This document shows positions 8,854-29,107 of a DNA stretch of 47,545 nt, one piece after another; positions within the stretch are counted from its first letter, which is position 1, and each line of letters begins with the position of its first letter. Source of the stretch: Prevotella sp. (GTDB taxonomy: Bacteria; Bacteroidota; Bacteroidia; Bacteroidales; Bacteroidaceae). The stretch spans positions 1 to 47,545 of the forward strand of contig JAGBJJ010000010.1 of NCBI GenBank assembly GCA_017934525.1. Reading direction: 5' to 3'. Position numbers and translations under genes: made by a program. The notes under the pieces were generated by a model, which was given only the letters and a program-made list of their open reading frames with translations, searched no databases and was not told the DNA's origin.

Positions 8854-8989
8854 CTCCTTTTTTTCCGACTTAGTCAATCGAAGCCTCTGTCAACTTCGTT
8901 TTTTACATCTTCTTAACCATTTTAACATTCCCGACAAAAAACACTTCATAAAAAAAGGCTTTCCTTTTGGCGTTCTGCCCGTTATTTCG

Positions 8990-8997
8990 TAACTTTG
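8990..8997 (+). promoter_or_regulatory. -7 promoter box of bcp
   Basis: TAACTTTG matches TAnnTTTG and lies 18 bp before the preferred ATG at 9015. It excludes the longer frame that would begin with a TTG at 8967. Confidence 0.75.
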
Positions 8998-9014
8998 CAC
9001 GCAAAACCAAAAAC

Positions 9015-9473
9015 ATGACTATGAACATAGGAGACAAAGCGCCCGAGATTCTGGGCAAGGACGAAGAAGGAAGGGAAATCCTGCTGAGCGATTTCCGCGG
9101 TAAGAAACTGGTGCTCTACTTCTATCCGAAAGACCTGACGAGCGGCTGCACGGCCGAGGCCTGCAGCTTCCGCGACCATCTCAGCGAGCTGCAGGAGGCT
9201 GGCTACGAAGTGGTAGGCGTCAGCGTAGACGAGGAAAAGCAGCACCGCAAGTTCAAGGAGAAGCACGAGCTGAACTTCCCCCTGATAGCCGACGTAGACA
9301 AACGGCTGGTGGAGACGTTTGGCGTGTGGCAGGAGAAGTCGATGTACGGCCGCAAGTATATGGGCACCGTGCGCACCACCTTCATCATCGACGAAGAGGG
9401 TGTGGTGGAACAAATCATAGGCCCCAAGCAGATTAAGACGAAGATGCATGCCGAACAGATTCTGAAGGCATAG
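9015..9473 (+). CDS. bcp: Thiol peroxidase of the Bcp/PrxQ family
   Basis: This 152-residue thioredoxin-fold protein reduces hydrogen peroxide and organic peroxides in the cytoplasm, using thioredoxin as electron donor in known relatives. The active-site block reads YPKDLTSGCTAEACSFRD. Cys45 is the expected peroxidatic residue and Cys50 the resolving residue, the C-x4-C layout of the atypical two-cysteine class. The downstream VGVSVDEEKQHRKF and the arginine of VRTTFIIDEEG are also typical. Starts at 9015 and 9021 (MTMNIG or MNIG) are both possible; a longer reading from 8967 would include promoter sequence. It is a single-gene transcript converging on waaA. Confidence 0.93.
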   Translation: MTMNIGDKAPEILGKDEEGREILLSDFRGKKLVLYFYPKDLTSGCTAEACSFRDHLSELQEAGYEVVGVSVDEEKQHRKFKEKHELNFPLIADVDKRLVETFGVWQEKSMYGRKYMGTVRTTFIIDEEGVVEQIIGPKQIKTKMHAEQILKA

Positions 9474-9534
9474 GAGTGCGAAAGGGCCACTGGAGGGTTT
9501 TCTGCCGTCTTTGCCGCAGGTCTACAAAAAATTT

Positions 9535-9582
9535 TGGCCAGAATCGTTTCAATTTCGGCCATAATTGAAACGATTCTGGCCA
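9535..9582. repeat. GGCC-centred 21-bp array, locus 1
   Basis: GGCC occurs at 9536, 9557 and 9578, exactly 21 bp apart, each flanked by A/T-rich half-sites of the form ATTYY-GGCC-RNWAT. The whole array is also a perfect inverted repeat with 20-bp arms (9535-9554 and 9563-9582). It lies between the convergent bcp and waaA genes. It may be a terminator, a protein-binding array or both. Confidence 0.75.
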
Positions 9583-9671
9583 TTATTCTGTCGTAATAGT
9601 GCTGCGATGCGGGCCGATGCCCAGCCGATGGCGATGCTACGGCCGGCTGACGGCAAGACCAATGAGTCCCG

Positions 9672-10904
9672 TCAGAGCTCCACGTCGTGCAAGATGAGGT
9701 GCGTGGCACCGGCATTGTCGGCTACGAAGCTGCCGGCCTTGCGCCCAGCCTCGCTGATTACGGCACCATCGGCACGGAAGCGGTCCATGAGCACAGCAAA
9801 GTCGCCGCCGCACTGTATGTCGAATCCGCCGCCGCAGCGCTTCAGTTCCTGCGCCTCCTGGAAACGCTCGTTGTTGGGCCCGAAGATGACGGGCTTGCCC
9901 CAGACGGCCGCCTCCAGCACATTGTGGATGCCCACGCCGAAGCCGCCACCGACGTAGGTGACGTCGGCATAGCGATAAATAGACGAGAGGAGTCCGTAGC
10001 AGTCGATGAGAAGCACGTCGTAGTCAGCTGGCCTGACATCCGCTTGGCCTGCCTGGCTATAGCGCAGCACGCGTTTACCCTGCGCCTCGAAGCGCTTCTG
10101 CAGGGCTTGCATACGCTGCTCACTGACCACATGCGTGGCCACCACGAGGCGCCAGTCTTTGTCGGCAAAATAGGGTATGTAGACATCCTCGTCGGGCTCC
10201 CAGCTGCTGCCTGCGATGAAGACGGGCCGGTCGCCGGCAGCGAAATCACCTACCACCTCAGACTGACGGGCGGCGTCGCGTATCTGCAGCACGCGGTCGA
10301 AACGGGTGTCGCCGACCACGGTGACGCAGTCGATGCCGATGCTCTGCAGCAGTTCGCGGCTCTTCTCGTTCTGCACGTAGAAGCGGGTGAAGCACTTCAG
10401 CACGCGGCCGTACTGCCGCCCGTACCAGCGGAAGAATATCTGCCCGTCGCGGAAGATGCTCGACACGCTGTAGGTGGGCACGCCGCGGTGCTTCAGTATG
10501 TGCAGGTAGTTGTACCAGAACTCATACTTGATGAAGAAGGCGGCCTCAGGACGCACCAGCCGCAGGAAACGGCGGGCATTGCGGATGGTGTCGAGCGGCA
10601 GGTAGCAGACGATGTCGGCACCCTCGTAGTTCTTGCGCACCTCATAGCCCGAAGGCGAGAAAAACGTGAGCAGTATCTTCAGTTCGGGATGGTCGTGACG
10701 CAGCTGCTCCAGGAGCGGGCGCCCCTGCTCAAACTCGCCGAGCGAGGCGGCGTGAAACCAGACGTAGCGTGCCGCTGGGTCTACCTGCTCGCGCAGCACG
10801 CGAAAGGCGTCGCGCTCGCCGCGCCACATCTTTTGCACTTTATCATTGAAGCGGCTGTAGACAGCCACGCCCAGCAGGTAGAGGTAAATAATCAGGTTAT
10901 ACAT
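9672..10904 (-). CDS. waaA: 3-deoxy-D-manno-octulosonic acid (Kdo) transferase
   Basis: This 410-residue inner-membrane-associated glycosyltransferase adds Kdo to the lipid A precursor in lipopolysaccharide synthesis. An N-terminal membrane anchor (MYNLIIYLYLLGVAVYSRF) is followed by the WFHAASLGEFEQGRPLLE motif typical of WaaA, the LLTFFSPSGYEVRKNY block, KYEFWYNYL, and the GT-B donor half with GSSWEPDED, DVTYVGGGFGVGIHNVLEAAVWGKPVIFGP. Length is normal. It lies downstream of gltX on the same strand with 94 bp between, a gap filled by tandem and inverted repeats, so it may be read from the gltX promoter. Confidence 0.93.
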   Translation of the reverse strand: MYNLIIYLYLLGVAVYSRFNDKVQKMWRGERDAFRVLREQVDPAARYVWFHAASLGEFEQGRPLLEQLRHDHPELKILLTFFSPSGYEVRKNYEGADIVCYLPLDTIRNARRFLRLVRPEAAFFIKYEFWYNYLHILKHRGVPTYSVSSIFRDGQIFFRWYGRQYGRVLKCFTRFYVQNEKSRELLQSIGIDCVTVVGDTRFDRVLQIRDAARQSEVVGDFAAGDRPVFIAGSSWEPDEDVYIPYFADKDWRLVVATHVVSEQRMQALQKRFEAQGKRVLRYSQAGQADVRPADYDVLLIDCYGLLSSIYRYADVTYVGGGFGVGIHNVLEAAVWGKPVIFGPNNERFQEAQELKRCGGGFDIQCGGDFAVLMDRFRADGAVISEAGRKAGSFVADNAGATHLILHDVEL

Positions 10905-26520: not shown

Positions 26521-27459
26521 CTACAGTATCCTCACGCTCTGATGGCGGCCGCGCCCTTTCTTGAAGAGGTTCAGGTTCATCTGATAGCCCACGCAGAGCT
26601 CGTGGCTGCCACTGCCCACACTGACGCCGTTGGTGTACACCTCGTAGCAGTAGCCCAAACTGATGCCATGGACCACACCTCCGAGCAGCAGCGACACCGA
26701 GTTAGTGGGGCTGCACCCCAAGCCCACATACATCACGCGCTGTTCGTGGGTGTACTTCAGCCGGGTGGTCACGTCGACGCGGTAGCCCACGCCGTCAGAG
26801 CGTCCCAGCACAGAGGGGTGCAATGTAAAGAACGGATTTCTGAGCCGAATATTGCATCCGGCGGTGAAATAATATGAGCGCGCCACATTGAGTTCGTTGG
26901 TCTCTCCCAGCTCTATCTTTGGTGCCAGCGCGTGCCTCACCGAGGCGCCCGCATACCAGTGTTTATGCTGATAGTAGAGGCCAGCCCCCAGGTCGAAGGC
27001 CGTGCCCGTCACCTCGCTGGTGGCAAAGGCCGGGTCGCCGGGCTCGTCGAGGTTAAGCCCGCTGCCGTCGAAGGTCTCGCTCATCATGGCCCCCTCCACG
27101 CCTATGCTCAGCGTGCCGCCGAAGAGGCGCTGTTTCATGGCATACTGCACGGCCAGGTTGCGGTGGGAGAAGAGTCCGATGGCGTCGTTGACAAAACGCA
27201 GTCCCACGCCGTGATAGGCCCCGACGAGGTAGAACGGCATGTCGCCCGAGGCATACATCGTGCGGGGATTGTGGCGGAAGCCCGTCATGGTCATGTTGTA
27301 GGCTCCCACAATGTTTATCTTCTCCTGTTTGCCCACGGCGCCGGGGTTAAACGAAGGCTCCATCGCCCAGTAGTGACTGAACGACGGGTCGTATTGTGCC
27401 GACGCCTCTACCGAGGCCATCAGCAGCAGGGCCAATATCAGATGAATTCGCCTAAACAC
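26521..27459 (-). CDS. porP: T9SS outer-membrane protein of the PorP/SprF family
   Basis: The 312-residue barrel protein has a signal peptide (MFRRIHLILALLLMASVEASAQ) followed by YDPSFSHYWAMEPSFNPGAVG, the N-terminal block typical of PorP/SprF. Later strands such as GAGLYYQHKHWYAGASVRHA and the FTAGCNIRLRNPFFTLHPS segment are also typical. PorP binds the peptidoglycan-linked PorE and is encoded first in the porPKLMN operon of Bacteroidales, as here. The start codon is GTG at 27459; no in-frame ATG is found upstream before a stop. A candidate promoter lies 44 bp upstream, with a GGCC array just beyond it. Confidence 0.9.
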   Translation of the reverse strand: MFRRIHLILALLLMASVEASAQYDPSFSHYWAMEPSFNPGAVGKQEKINIVGAYNMTMTGFRHNPRTMYASGDMPFYLVGAYHGVGLRFVNDAIGLFSHRNLAVQYAMKQRLFGGTLSIGVEGAMMSETFDGSGLNLDEPGDPAFATSEVTGTAFDLGAGLYYQHKHWYAGASVRHALAPKIELGETNELNVARSYYFTAGCNIRLRNPFFTLHPSVLGRSDGVGYRVDVTTRLKYTHEQRVMYVGLGCSPTNSVSLLLGGVVHGISLGYCYEVYTNGVSVGSGSHELCVGYQMNLNLFKKGRGRHQSVRIL

Positions 27460-27510: not shown

Positions 27511-27530
27511 TTAATGAACGGGCAGAAAAT

Positions 27531-27600
27531 TCTGGCCGATATTCATATAATTTTGGCCGAAATCTCATCGATTCCGGCCAAAATTCATGCGTGTGCGGCA
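27531..27600. repeat. GGCC-centred 21-bp array, locus 2, upstream of the T9SS operon
   Basis: GGCC occurs at 27534, 27555 and 27576, exactly 21 bp apart, with a GGCA at 27597 at the next 21-bp step. The flanks follow ATTYY-GGCC-RNWAT as at locus 1 (9535-9582). The array lies between the 3' end of the mannosidase gene and the candidate promoter of porP, all on the minus strand. Confidence 0.75.
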
Positions 27601-27604
27601 GTCC

Positions 27605-29107
27605 TCAGCGTGCCTCATAGCGCTTGCAGCTGTTCAGCAGCGGCGCCTTGCCATCGGCAATGAGCTTCAGTATGAGCTCGCCGAAGAGTGTGTTCTGCCA
27701 TGCAAACCAGGGGCGCGTGTAGCGCGAGGCGTCATCTTTGTGGAACGACTCGTGGATGAAGCCCGTGCCGGCATCGGTAGACATGAGCATCTCTATGCAG
27801 CGCTTTATCTCCTCGTCGCTCTGACTGGTGAAGGCATACATCATGATTGACATGGGCCAGGGCATGTCGTAGCCTATGTGCGGTCCGCCAATGCCCTCGC
27901 CGGCCTTGCCGCGGAAGAAAGAGGGGTTGTCGTCAGACCACACGAAGCGGCGCGTATTCTGATAGATGGGGTCGCTGAGGGGCACGTCGCCCAGATAGGC
28001 CATGCCGAGCAGCGACGGCACATTGGCATCGTCGGTGAGCAGGCGGCTGCCGAAGCCGTCTACCTCGAAAGCATATATCTTGCCATACTTCGGGTGTTCC
28101 ACCACGGCATACTGTCTGAGTGCCTGCTCCACCTCGTCGGCCAGGTCGGTGCACTGGCGGGCACGAGTCTCATCGCCGTTGACGGCAGTGAGTATCTCTG
28201 CGGCCTTGCGCAGCGAGCTCACGGCCATAAAGTTTGACGGCACGAGGAAGGGTAGCACCGTGGCATCGTCGCTCGGGCGGAAGACCGAGGCAATGAGCCC
28301 CACAGGCTTTACGGGAGCGCCGCGCCCGTCCCATCCCACGGTATCAAACTGGCGGTCGGTGGTGCGGGTGAAGGTGTAAGGGCCGGTGCCGTCTTTACGC
28401 TGCTGCTGGCGGAAGGTGAGCAGCACGTTGTCTACGGCCTGCAGCCACACGTCGCCGAAGACGGTGGTGTCGCCCGTCACTTGCCAGTAGTGGTAGGCCA
28501 GACGTATGGGGTAGCACTCCGAGTCAATCTCATACTTGCGCTCGTGCAGGCCGGGCTTCATGTCGGTGTGGTCGCTGGCCCACTCGCCCACCTCGTCGGG
28601 CGTGTCATAGAAGGCGTTGGCATAGGGGTCGATGTTGATGCTCTTCAGCTGGCGCATGATGACACCACGAATGAGGCGCTGCAGCGCGGGGTCGTCATTG
28701 CAGAACTGCACGTAGGGCCACACCTGCGCCCCCGAGTCGCGCAGCCACATGGCGGCAATGTCGCCGGTGTAGACGAAAGTGTCGTCGTCGCCGTCGGGCA
28801 GCTGGCGGTAGTGGGCTGTGGTCTCCAGCGTGTTGGGGAAGCAGTTTTCAAACATCCAGGCCAGATAGGGGTTGCCACTGAGCAGCTGCTTCACCTCGTC
28901 GATTTTGCGGTCGATGACCTCCGAGCGGAACAGGCGGTCTTCGGGCGCCGGGCGCTTCGACTGTCCCACCCCGATGGTGGTGTCGGCCGTCATGGCAATA
29001 TATTCTTTACCGAAAGCCAATGCCTTTTCTTCTGGTTGGCTCTGTCTGGTTCCGCAGGCGGTCATGGCCAGTGCCACGGCTGCCACATAAAGGTGTCTCC
29101 TTTTCAT
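27605..29107 (-). CDS. GH125 family exo-alpha-1,6-mannosidase lipoprotein
   Basis: The 500-residue protein has a lipoprotein signal (MKRRHLYVAAVALAMTAC, Cys18), so it is membrane-anchored in the envelope. The rest matches glycoside hydrolase family 125 (former DUF1237): LAWMFENCFPNTLETTAHY, TFVYTGDIAAMWLRDSGAQVWPY, ANAFYDTPDEVGEWASDHTDMKPG, YEIDSECYPIRLAYHYW, and GGPHIGYDMPWPMSIMMYAF. Family members are inverting exo-alpha-1,6-mannosidases with an (alpha/alpha)6 barrel, acting on mannoproteins or N-glycans. It is transcribed alone from its own promoter. No SusC/SusD pair is near, so this is not a typical polysaccharide utilisation locus. Confidence 0.9.
   Translation of the reverse strand: MKRRHLYVAAVALAMTACGTRQSQPEEKALAFGKEYIAMTADTTIGVGQSKRPAPEDRLFRSEVIDRKIDEVKQLLSGNPYLAWMFENCFPNTLETTAHYRQLPDGDDDTFVYTGDIAAMWLRDSGAQVWPYVQFCNDDPALQRLIRGVIMRQLKSINIDPYANAFYDTPDEVGEWASDHTDMKPGLHERKYEIDSECYPIRLAYHYWQVTGDTTVFGDVWLQAVDNVLLTFRQQQRKDGTGPYTFTRTTDRQFDTVGWDGRGAPVKPVGLIASVFRPSDDATVLPFLVPSNFMAVSSLRKAAEILTAVNGDETRARQCTDLADEVEQALRQYAVVEHPKYGKIYAFEVDGFGSRLLTDDANVPSLLGMAYLGDVPLSDPIYQNTRRFVWSDDNPSFFRGKAGEGIGGPHIGYDMPWPMSIMMYAFTSQSDEEIKRCIEMLMSTDAGTGFIHESFHKDDASRYTRPWFAWQNTLFGELILKLIADGKAPLLNSCKRYEAR

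Follow-up and report, generated by a model that had tools for sequence, protein, structure and literature searches.

Phased triple-palindrome arrays dispersed over a Prevotella genome as candidate chromosomal landmarks

Results

Palindromes at an exact 21-bp step beside a T9SS gene run

The window, by which we mean the whole 47,545-nucleotide stretch of DNA that was analyzed, contains two short arrays of one palindrome family. The first occupies part of the 145 bp that separate the end of a GH125 gene from the called porP start; both genes are on the minus strand, and the array's end lies 70 bp from the porP start. Downstream, porP is followed by a porK-like gene (FGE-sulfatase fold) and then by gldL/porL-, gldM/porM-, and gldN/porN-like genes. 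The second array, whose spacers are mirror-complementary, lies between a Kdo-transferase-like gene and a short ORF.

27529 to 27542, no strand assigned: array unit 1, ATTCTGGCCGATAT, an exact match to ATTYYGGCCRNWAT
27550 to 27563, no strand assigned: array unit 2, ATTTTGGCCGAAAT, an exact match to ATTYYGGCCRNWAT, 21 bp past unit 1
27571 to 27584, no strand assigned: array unit 3, ATTCCGGCCAAAAT, an exact match to ATTYYGGCCRNWAT, 21 bp past unit 2
26521 to 27459, minus strand: porP/sprF, with which the T9SS run downstream of the array begins (Pfam PF11751, E = 1.5e-51; context only)
27605 to 29107, minus strand: GH125 alpha-mannosidase gene, its end 20 bp from the array (Pfam PF06824, E = 1.1e-165; context only)
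9531 to 9586, no strand assigned: second three-unit array of the same family, units at 9531, 9552, and 9573
9672 to 10904, minus strand: Kdo-transferase-like gene, its 3' end bordering the second array
8982 to 9449, minus strand: 155-amino-acid ORF without a Pfam match, on the other border of the second array

A sequence-only reading of this DNA had pointed out GGCC centers at 27534, 27555, and 27576, each the middle of a palindrome, at an exact 21-bp step. Both observations are borne out: each center falls within an exact match to ATTYYGGCCRNWAT, and the units start at 27529, 27550, and 27571. The GGCA that it had added to the series at 27597 is present as letters but lacks the ATT/AAT half-sites (GTGTGCGGCAGTCC) and is no unit, so the array has three units and not four. 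At up to two mismatches, ATTYYGGCCRNWAT matches the window 19 times against 9.15 expected, a number reached by 0 of 100 shuffles, and all zero-mismatch matches fall in one or the other array.

An estimated 75 to 80 arrays in the host assembly

The host assembly comprises 2.6 Mb in 101 contigs and is 76.5% complete. A search with the three-unit TNNGGCCNNA pattern at a 21-bp step and up to three mismatches gave 99 matches per strand, against 6 for the reversed control. A stricter pattern gave 66, and the pattern mis-spaced at 20 bp gave 3. The 21-bp spacing, which the earlier reading had proposed to check elsewhere in the genome, is maintained there. Matches outnumber arrays, either by chance or where the same array is matched twice with a 21-bp shift. 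In 1.47 Mb of host DNA, 57 matches correspond to 45 arrays, with two matches at no array (chance), from which we estimate by scaling up that the assembly holds about 75 to 80. With the array region as BLAST query, 76 matches, the self-match among them, came from the two strands, and they fall on or close to the part of the query that holds the array. Two host arrays, on contigs C70 and C90, are identical; the context, flank, and hairpin analyses counted identical arrays once. A 21-bp direct tandem repeat of at least five units, GGCTTTTGACTATAGACTTCA, at about 38.1 kb of contig C40 of G000 (L290:18101), is unlike the palindromic arrays.

Perfect units occur in triplets with mostly free spacers

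The 16-mer RATTNYGGCCRNAATY has 110 perfect matches in 231 kb of array-selected host DNA, and every one of them (110/110) has a partner at 21 or 42 bp. The distances between perfect matches are 21 bp (107 cases), 42 bp (55), 63 bp (1), 117 bp (1), and 120 bp (1). Isolated matches in the same DNA are imperfect: 1 with one mismatch and 10 with two, where chance predicts 9.3 with two. Three contiguous host stretches, of 258, 767, and 397 kb and partly shared with the array-selected set, hold 1, 37, and 37 perfect units, none isolated; their odd unit distances are 43, 63, 106, and 117 bp, one each. Isolated units with one mismatch number 0, 5, and 1 in these stretches, and those with two number 12, 20, and 15. 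Among 54 host arrays in fetched loci, 51 have three units, two were called with four, and one two-unit call within a gene looks like chance. In G374, a congener whose chromosome is a single 3.73-Mb contig, 61 of 64 arrays have three units; two two-unit calls look like chance and one array carries a spurious fourth unit.

Conservation within the units was followed in 48 host arrays, the set being 48 of 50 places listed from 99 pattern matches. A/T positions outside the pattern selection are conserved in 46 to 48 of the 48, the base beside GGCC is nearly always a pyrimidine on the left and a purine on the right, and there is little information in the inner spacer. Spacer pairs alike at 8 or more of 10 positions number 27 against 3.1 and 26 against 9.4 in shuffles for G374, and 17 against 4.8 for the host genome, where mean similarity is nonetheless below that of shuffles. 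Beyond the arrays, a comparison of the flanks of 53 host arrays gave six weak matches between different arrays; among 62 G374 arrays there were 102 matches, many of them neighboring arrays with a common stretch.

The sequence-only reading had taken the spacing as that expected of a cooperatively binding protein, with all sites facing the same side of the helix. The step kept across varying spacers and the absence of lone perfect units are what such a protein would be expected to leave in the DNA, and this part of the proposal is supported; the binding itself stays putative.

An action of the array as RNA, as a bidirectional terminator or hairpin, is highly improbable. The units are palindromic and mostly intergenic, the array in the window begins 20 bp past the GH125 gene end, mirror complementarity of host spacers slightly exceeds shuffles (151 versus 124.7, P = 0.0025), and 5 of 52 host arrays are near-perfect palindromes. 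Set against this, complementarity lies below shuffles in the AGCT arrays of G374 (94 versus 119.5) and is not higher in its GGCC arrays (94 versus 101.4), there is no preference for convergent gaps, and Rfam gave no match in the window and, in 14 loci, a sole match to ribosomal RNA. Dinucleotide complementarity shows a weak excess in outer positions in the host (P = 0.046) and in inner positions in the G374 GGCC arrays (P = 0.019).

Arrays of one family keep a minimum distance

The 45 host arrays in 1.47 Mb define 25 spacings, the smallest being 11.0 kb. None of the 25 is below 10.5 kb, against a mean of 9.3 under random intergenic placement, with never fewer than 3 in 2,000 simulations. The 10.5-kb threshold was set after an earlier analysis of 42 hand-listed arrays, in which the smallest spacing was also 11.0 kb and was reached in 0 of 5,000 uniform simulations. 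The scanned contigs were mostly array-selected, and the simulation preserves the number of arrays per contig. A further host pair on contig C70 is 10.6 kb apart. The host assembly is fragmented; G374, as one contig, agrees with it: the smallest spacing is 17.5 kb for its AGCT arrays (0 of 20,000 simulations) and 14.5 kb for its GGCC arrays (P = 0.006).

Neighboring genes differ and gene starts are not preferred

The array had been proposed to control the T9SS operon. On a circular chromosome, convergent gaps are as many as divergent ones, and a preference for promoters or 3' ends would therefore appear as an imbalance. With a simple ORF caller, the raw counts for 54 host arrays are 25 in tandem gaps, 9 convergent, 6 divergent, 11 in called ORFs, and 3 undetermined. 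For 64 G374 arrays, close AGCT-GGCC pairs being entered twice, they are 34 tandem, 13 convergent, 14 divergent, 2 in ORFs, and 1 undetermined. Nine of the 11 in-ORF host arrays were rechecked; in seven, the enclosing ORF does not show the codon-position G+C pattern that neighboring genes have. The other two (L178 and L182) look like genes as a whole, though not near the array, so that their starts may have been called too early.

Pfam searches of 98 host neighbors and 103 G374 neighbors gave no dominating function in the families listed (25 of 142 and 25 of 172, respectively), and few neighbors recur from one species to another. Neither a gene-start preference nor a common neighbor function, as expected of one regulon's operator array, was found. 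Confinement to 3' ends had been named beforehand as speaking against regulation; the arrays are not so confined, and no enrichment at promoters was seen. Control of the T9SS operon specifically is not supported: the array is one of about 75 to 80 that adjoin functionally unrelated genes, and divergent gaps are not preferred over convergent ones. Regulation of T9SS alone was rejected because of that number of arrays.

Arrays in other Prevotella genomes carry lineage-specific cores

The GGCC pattern at up to two mismatches was found in none of 59 relatives. An exact scan of 84,980 species genomes returned seven stretches in four Prevotella or Prevotellaceae MAGs, which at up to three mismatches have 14, 1, 11, and 7 matches. 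A pattern with an RGCY core matched 19 of 398 congeners including the host (18 of 397 others), against 4 of 398, with up to 6 matches, for the reversed control; at least two of the 18 (G125 and G264) look like chance. One pair of arrays, G023:C1:37506 and G183:C215:18292, has identical spacers and three differences, all in the cores (AGCC/GGCT/AGCT versus GGCC/GGCC/GGCT). The two are perhaps orthologous, and the core-only changes look as if the cores tracked a changing binder.

The G374 contig carries two families, AGCT and GGCC. Of the 30 GGCC arrays, 11 have an AGCT array no more than 450 bp away, where 0.28 would be expected, and eight of these are at exactly 151 bp (L088, L090, L123, L124, L127, L128, L130, and L139), with middles of a constant 95 bp that are 44 to 97% identical. 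Some G374 arrays are embedded in longer repeats. Further along L088 there is a 16S rRNA match.

We also examined where the G374 arrays lie relative to GC skew, which, in 20 samples, is mostly positive before and mostly negative after a switch at 1.8 to 1.9 Mb. The 39 AGCT arrays among the matches listed leave 1.294 to 2.337 Mb empty, 1.04 Mb around the terminus (P = 1e-4 for such a gap anywhere), with up to seven further three-mismatch matches outside the 39, possibly inside the gap. The 521 kb on each side of 1.85 Mb contain one AGCT array where 10.9 would be expected and two GGCC arrays where 8.4 would be. For the GGCC family, the widest gap has P = 0.011. Samples from the terminus are somewhat AT-richer, and this region may be younger DNA.

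A second genus and a possible wider class

In G583, from another genus of the same family, 47 matches merge into 33 ATTSRYSAAT arrays at 21 bp, 13 of them with at least four units. The distance rule is weak there (smallest spacing, 10.1 kb; P = 0.09). There is no terminus gap (P = 0.74), 15 of the 33 arrays lying at 2.56 to 3.65 Mb around the skew switch near 2.75 to 3.0 Mb; G583 does not confirm the gap as a general rule. A core-free search for the architecture matched 10 of 399 genomes of the family, one of them the host, with the reversed control matching in 8 genomes and up to 26 times each. The matches are array-like in G543, G556, G583, and G770; by eye, those in G024, G083, G604, G704, and G752 are simple repeats or chance.

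A scan with no prescribed motif, looking for any three equally spaced palindromes, returned from 200 kb of G583 four CACCCGGGTG arrays at 23 bp, one TTTTGTACAAAA-like array at 22 bp, and one GATATACATC-like array at 23 bp. In 240 kb of G374 it returned five arrays, of both known families, and in Markov controls zero. It gave no array in the window, so its threshold misses the less perfect arrays of the host type.

L205:1550-1655, L211:3525-3610, L212:6030-6120, and L218:4515-4605 (G583): CACCCGGGTG arrays between called ORFs, four units by eye at 23-bp steps
L215:7660-7740 and L210:5245-5330 (G583): TTTTGTACAAAA-like (22 bp) and GATATACATC-like (23 bp) arrays, respectively, four units by eye

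Candidate binders

A ParB_N profile run against 14 genomes with or without arrays gave one match above the cutoff in 13 of them and no Noc-like paralog. The exceptions to a single match are G023 (56% complete), with none, and G003, with a second match below the cutoff. A ParB/Noc paralog as the binder is rejected for these 14 genomes.

In three genomes, a gene for an HU-HIG protein of 128 to 129 amino acids (PF18291, E = 2.7e-20 for the G374 copy) lies 29 to 74 bp downstream of an array, and the other genes of the three loci are unrelated.

L140:2072-2461, L058:2596-2982, and L073:1581-1967: HU-HIG genes downstream of arrays

This protein is a candidate binder, or else array and gene form a cassette that moves together. 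As the binder of the host it was set aside: it stands beside arrays in three other species, yet a profile built from three close sequences did not find its gene in 1.42 Mb of host stretches.

Discussion

The array beside porP belongs to a dispersed family, mostly intergenic, without a common function among its neighbors. Cooperative dimeric docking platforms fit this family best, because its phase is exact, its spacers are mostly free, its triplets are obligatory, its cores are lineage-specific, its neighbors share no function, and its members keep a minimum distance. We therefore read the array, with a probability of roughly one half, as one of about 75 to 80 docking sites of a dedicated homodimeric DNA-binding protein, spaced landmarks of the chromosome rather than switches of neighboring genes. 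One dimer would occupy each 14- to 16-bp palindrome (RATTNYGGCCRNAATY in the host species), and with units two helical turns apart, three dimers would line up along the same side of the double helix. The sites would function only as three-site assemblies and would mark positions more than about 10 kb apart, serving nucleoid organization, segregation, or division control. The empty stretch around the G374 terminus and the little sign of a hairpin at the arrays also speak for this reading. Against the landmark reading stand that no binder was found, that the arrays are patchy among congeners, that there are signs of copying, and that G583 has no terminus gap and a weak distance rule.

Several families could together form an undescribed class of Bacteroidaceae landmarks, though as a whole this extension is rather doubtful. 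Its members would act as a chromosomal ruler, with a set number of units (three in Prevotella, often four in the second genus) at about two helical turns. Each family would have its own core (GGCC, AGCT, ATTSRYSAAT, CACCCGGGTG, or TTTTGTACAAAA), be recognized by a rapidly evolving nucleoid protein specific to it, perhaps an HU-HIG protein, and keep a minimum distance of about 10 to 17 kb.

The main rival, unlikely but to be taken seriously, is that the arrays are REP/MITE-like nonautonomous mobile elements whose palindromes are read by a transposase and whose copies are spaced by target immunity. Such elements would be multicopy, mostly intergenic, and patchy among species, as the arrays are, and the minimum distance fits target immunity equally well. 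The longer repeats that embed arrays in G374, the 151-bp pairs with related middles, and the leftover similarity of spacers, clear in G374 and less so in the host genome, likewise point to copying. In the host, however, flanks are unrelated, and palindromes and phase are intact between arrays whose spacers mostly differ. Decaying copies would be expected to leave lone perfect units, and there are none; the families listed for the 98 host neighbors (25 of 142) include no transposase. An origin from phages or plasmids was rejected: viral contigs gave no exact match of three patterns, BLAST of two arrays (from G583 and G374) against plasmids gave no match, and BLAST with the 3.2-kb array region matched only in the GH125 gene. 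BLAST has little power with short degenerate queries.

It is improbable that the arrays are transcription factor operators for adjacent operons, here T9SS, within a large regulon. Phased palindromes are typical of operators, and the called porP start lies 70 bp downstream of this array. In three species, the same HU-HIG gene also follows an array at loci whose other genes are unrelated, and a 67%-identical neighbor (MurF-Alr-like, named by eye) adjoins an array in both the host and G374. But convergent and divergent gaps are used equally, neighbors are functionally mixed and mostly different between species, and the sites of a regulon would not be expected to stay more than 10 kb apart.

As a special case of the landmark reading, the arrays might be a nucleoid occlusion system proper, a Noc/SlmA-like system of Bacteroidetes, which we think quite improbable. 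Tens of palindromic sites missing around the G374 terminus are what it would predict. That support comes from a single complete chromosome, whose terminus window still holds three arrays (one AGCT and two GGCC) and is somewhat AT-richer and perhaps younger, while nearly half of the G583 arrays (15 of 33) lie around the skew switch and no ParB paralog was found.

The chromosomal landmark reading bears on a subject, the organization and segregation of Bacteroidetes chromosomes, that to our knowledge is poorly known; this phylum is not known to have a site system like matS or those of Noc and SlmA. In titles and abstract openings, we found no description of such arrays and, for Bacteroidetes and nucleoid occlusion, no such site system. 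Sites that come in strict triplets, in exact helical phase, and at a minimum mutual distance offer a direct handle, as array DNA can serve as bait for the protein.

Known systems share parts of this architecture. The ends of Tn7 and Mu each carry several 22-bp transposase sites and confer target immunity; like the arrays they have several sites, but theirs are directional whereas array units are palindromic, and no transposon body lies beside host arrays among the 25 of 142 Pfam families listed. REP sequences are dispersed, mostly intergenic, and palindromic, with lineage-specific sequence. The arrays share all of this with REP, BIME, and REPIN elements, yet they have a fixed unit number, an exact phase, mostly unconserved spacers, unrelated flanks in the host, and same-family copies more than 10 kb apart. 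The BrickBuilt MITE of Porphyromonas gingivalis is an intergenic, multicopy element in which 23-nt tandem repeats without spacers stand between a leader and a tail with inverted ends. The arrays are likewise from Bacteroidales, mostly intergenic, multicopy, and in some families repeated at 23-bp steps, but they consist of palindromes with variable spacers and have no common flank in the host genome, which sets them apart from a MITE of the BrickBuilt type.

Noc and SlmA bind single sites, and the array unit presumably resembles the Noc site in sequence. About 70 chromosomal sites with a 14-bp palindrome are reported for Noc (PMC4726725) and, for both proteins, palindromic sites that are scarce around the terminus (PMC4726725, PMC4331003). 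Like the sites of Noc in Bacillus subtilis and SlmA in Escherichia coli, the arrays are scattered in the tens and have units of about 14 palindromic bp; the listed AGCT arrays of G374 leave a terminus gap. The arrays differ in being triplets at 21 bp, in that no ParB paralog was found in the 14 genomes searched, and in showing no terminus gap in the second genus. Judged from the DNA, spaced triple-palindrome arrays look like docking sites for a protein that would serve the whole chromosome and not one operon.
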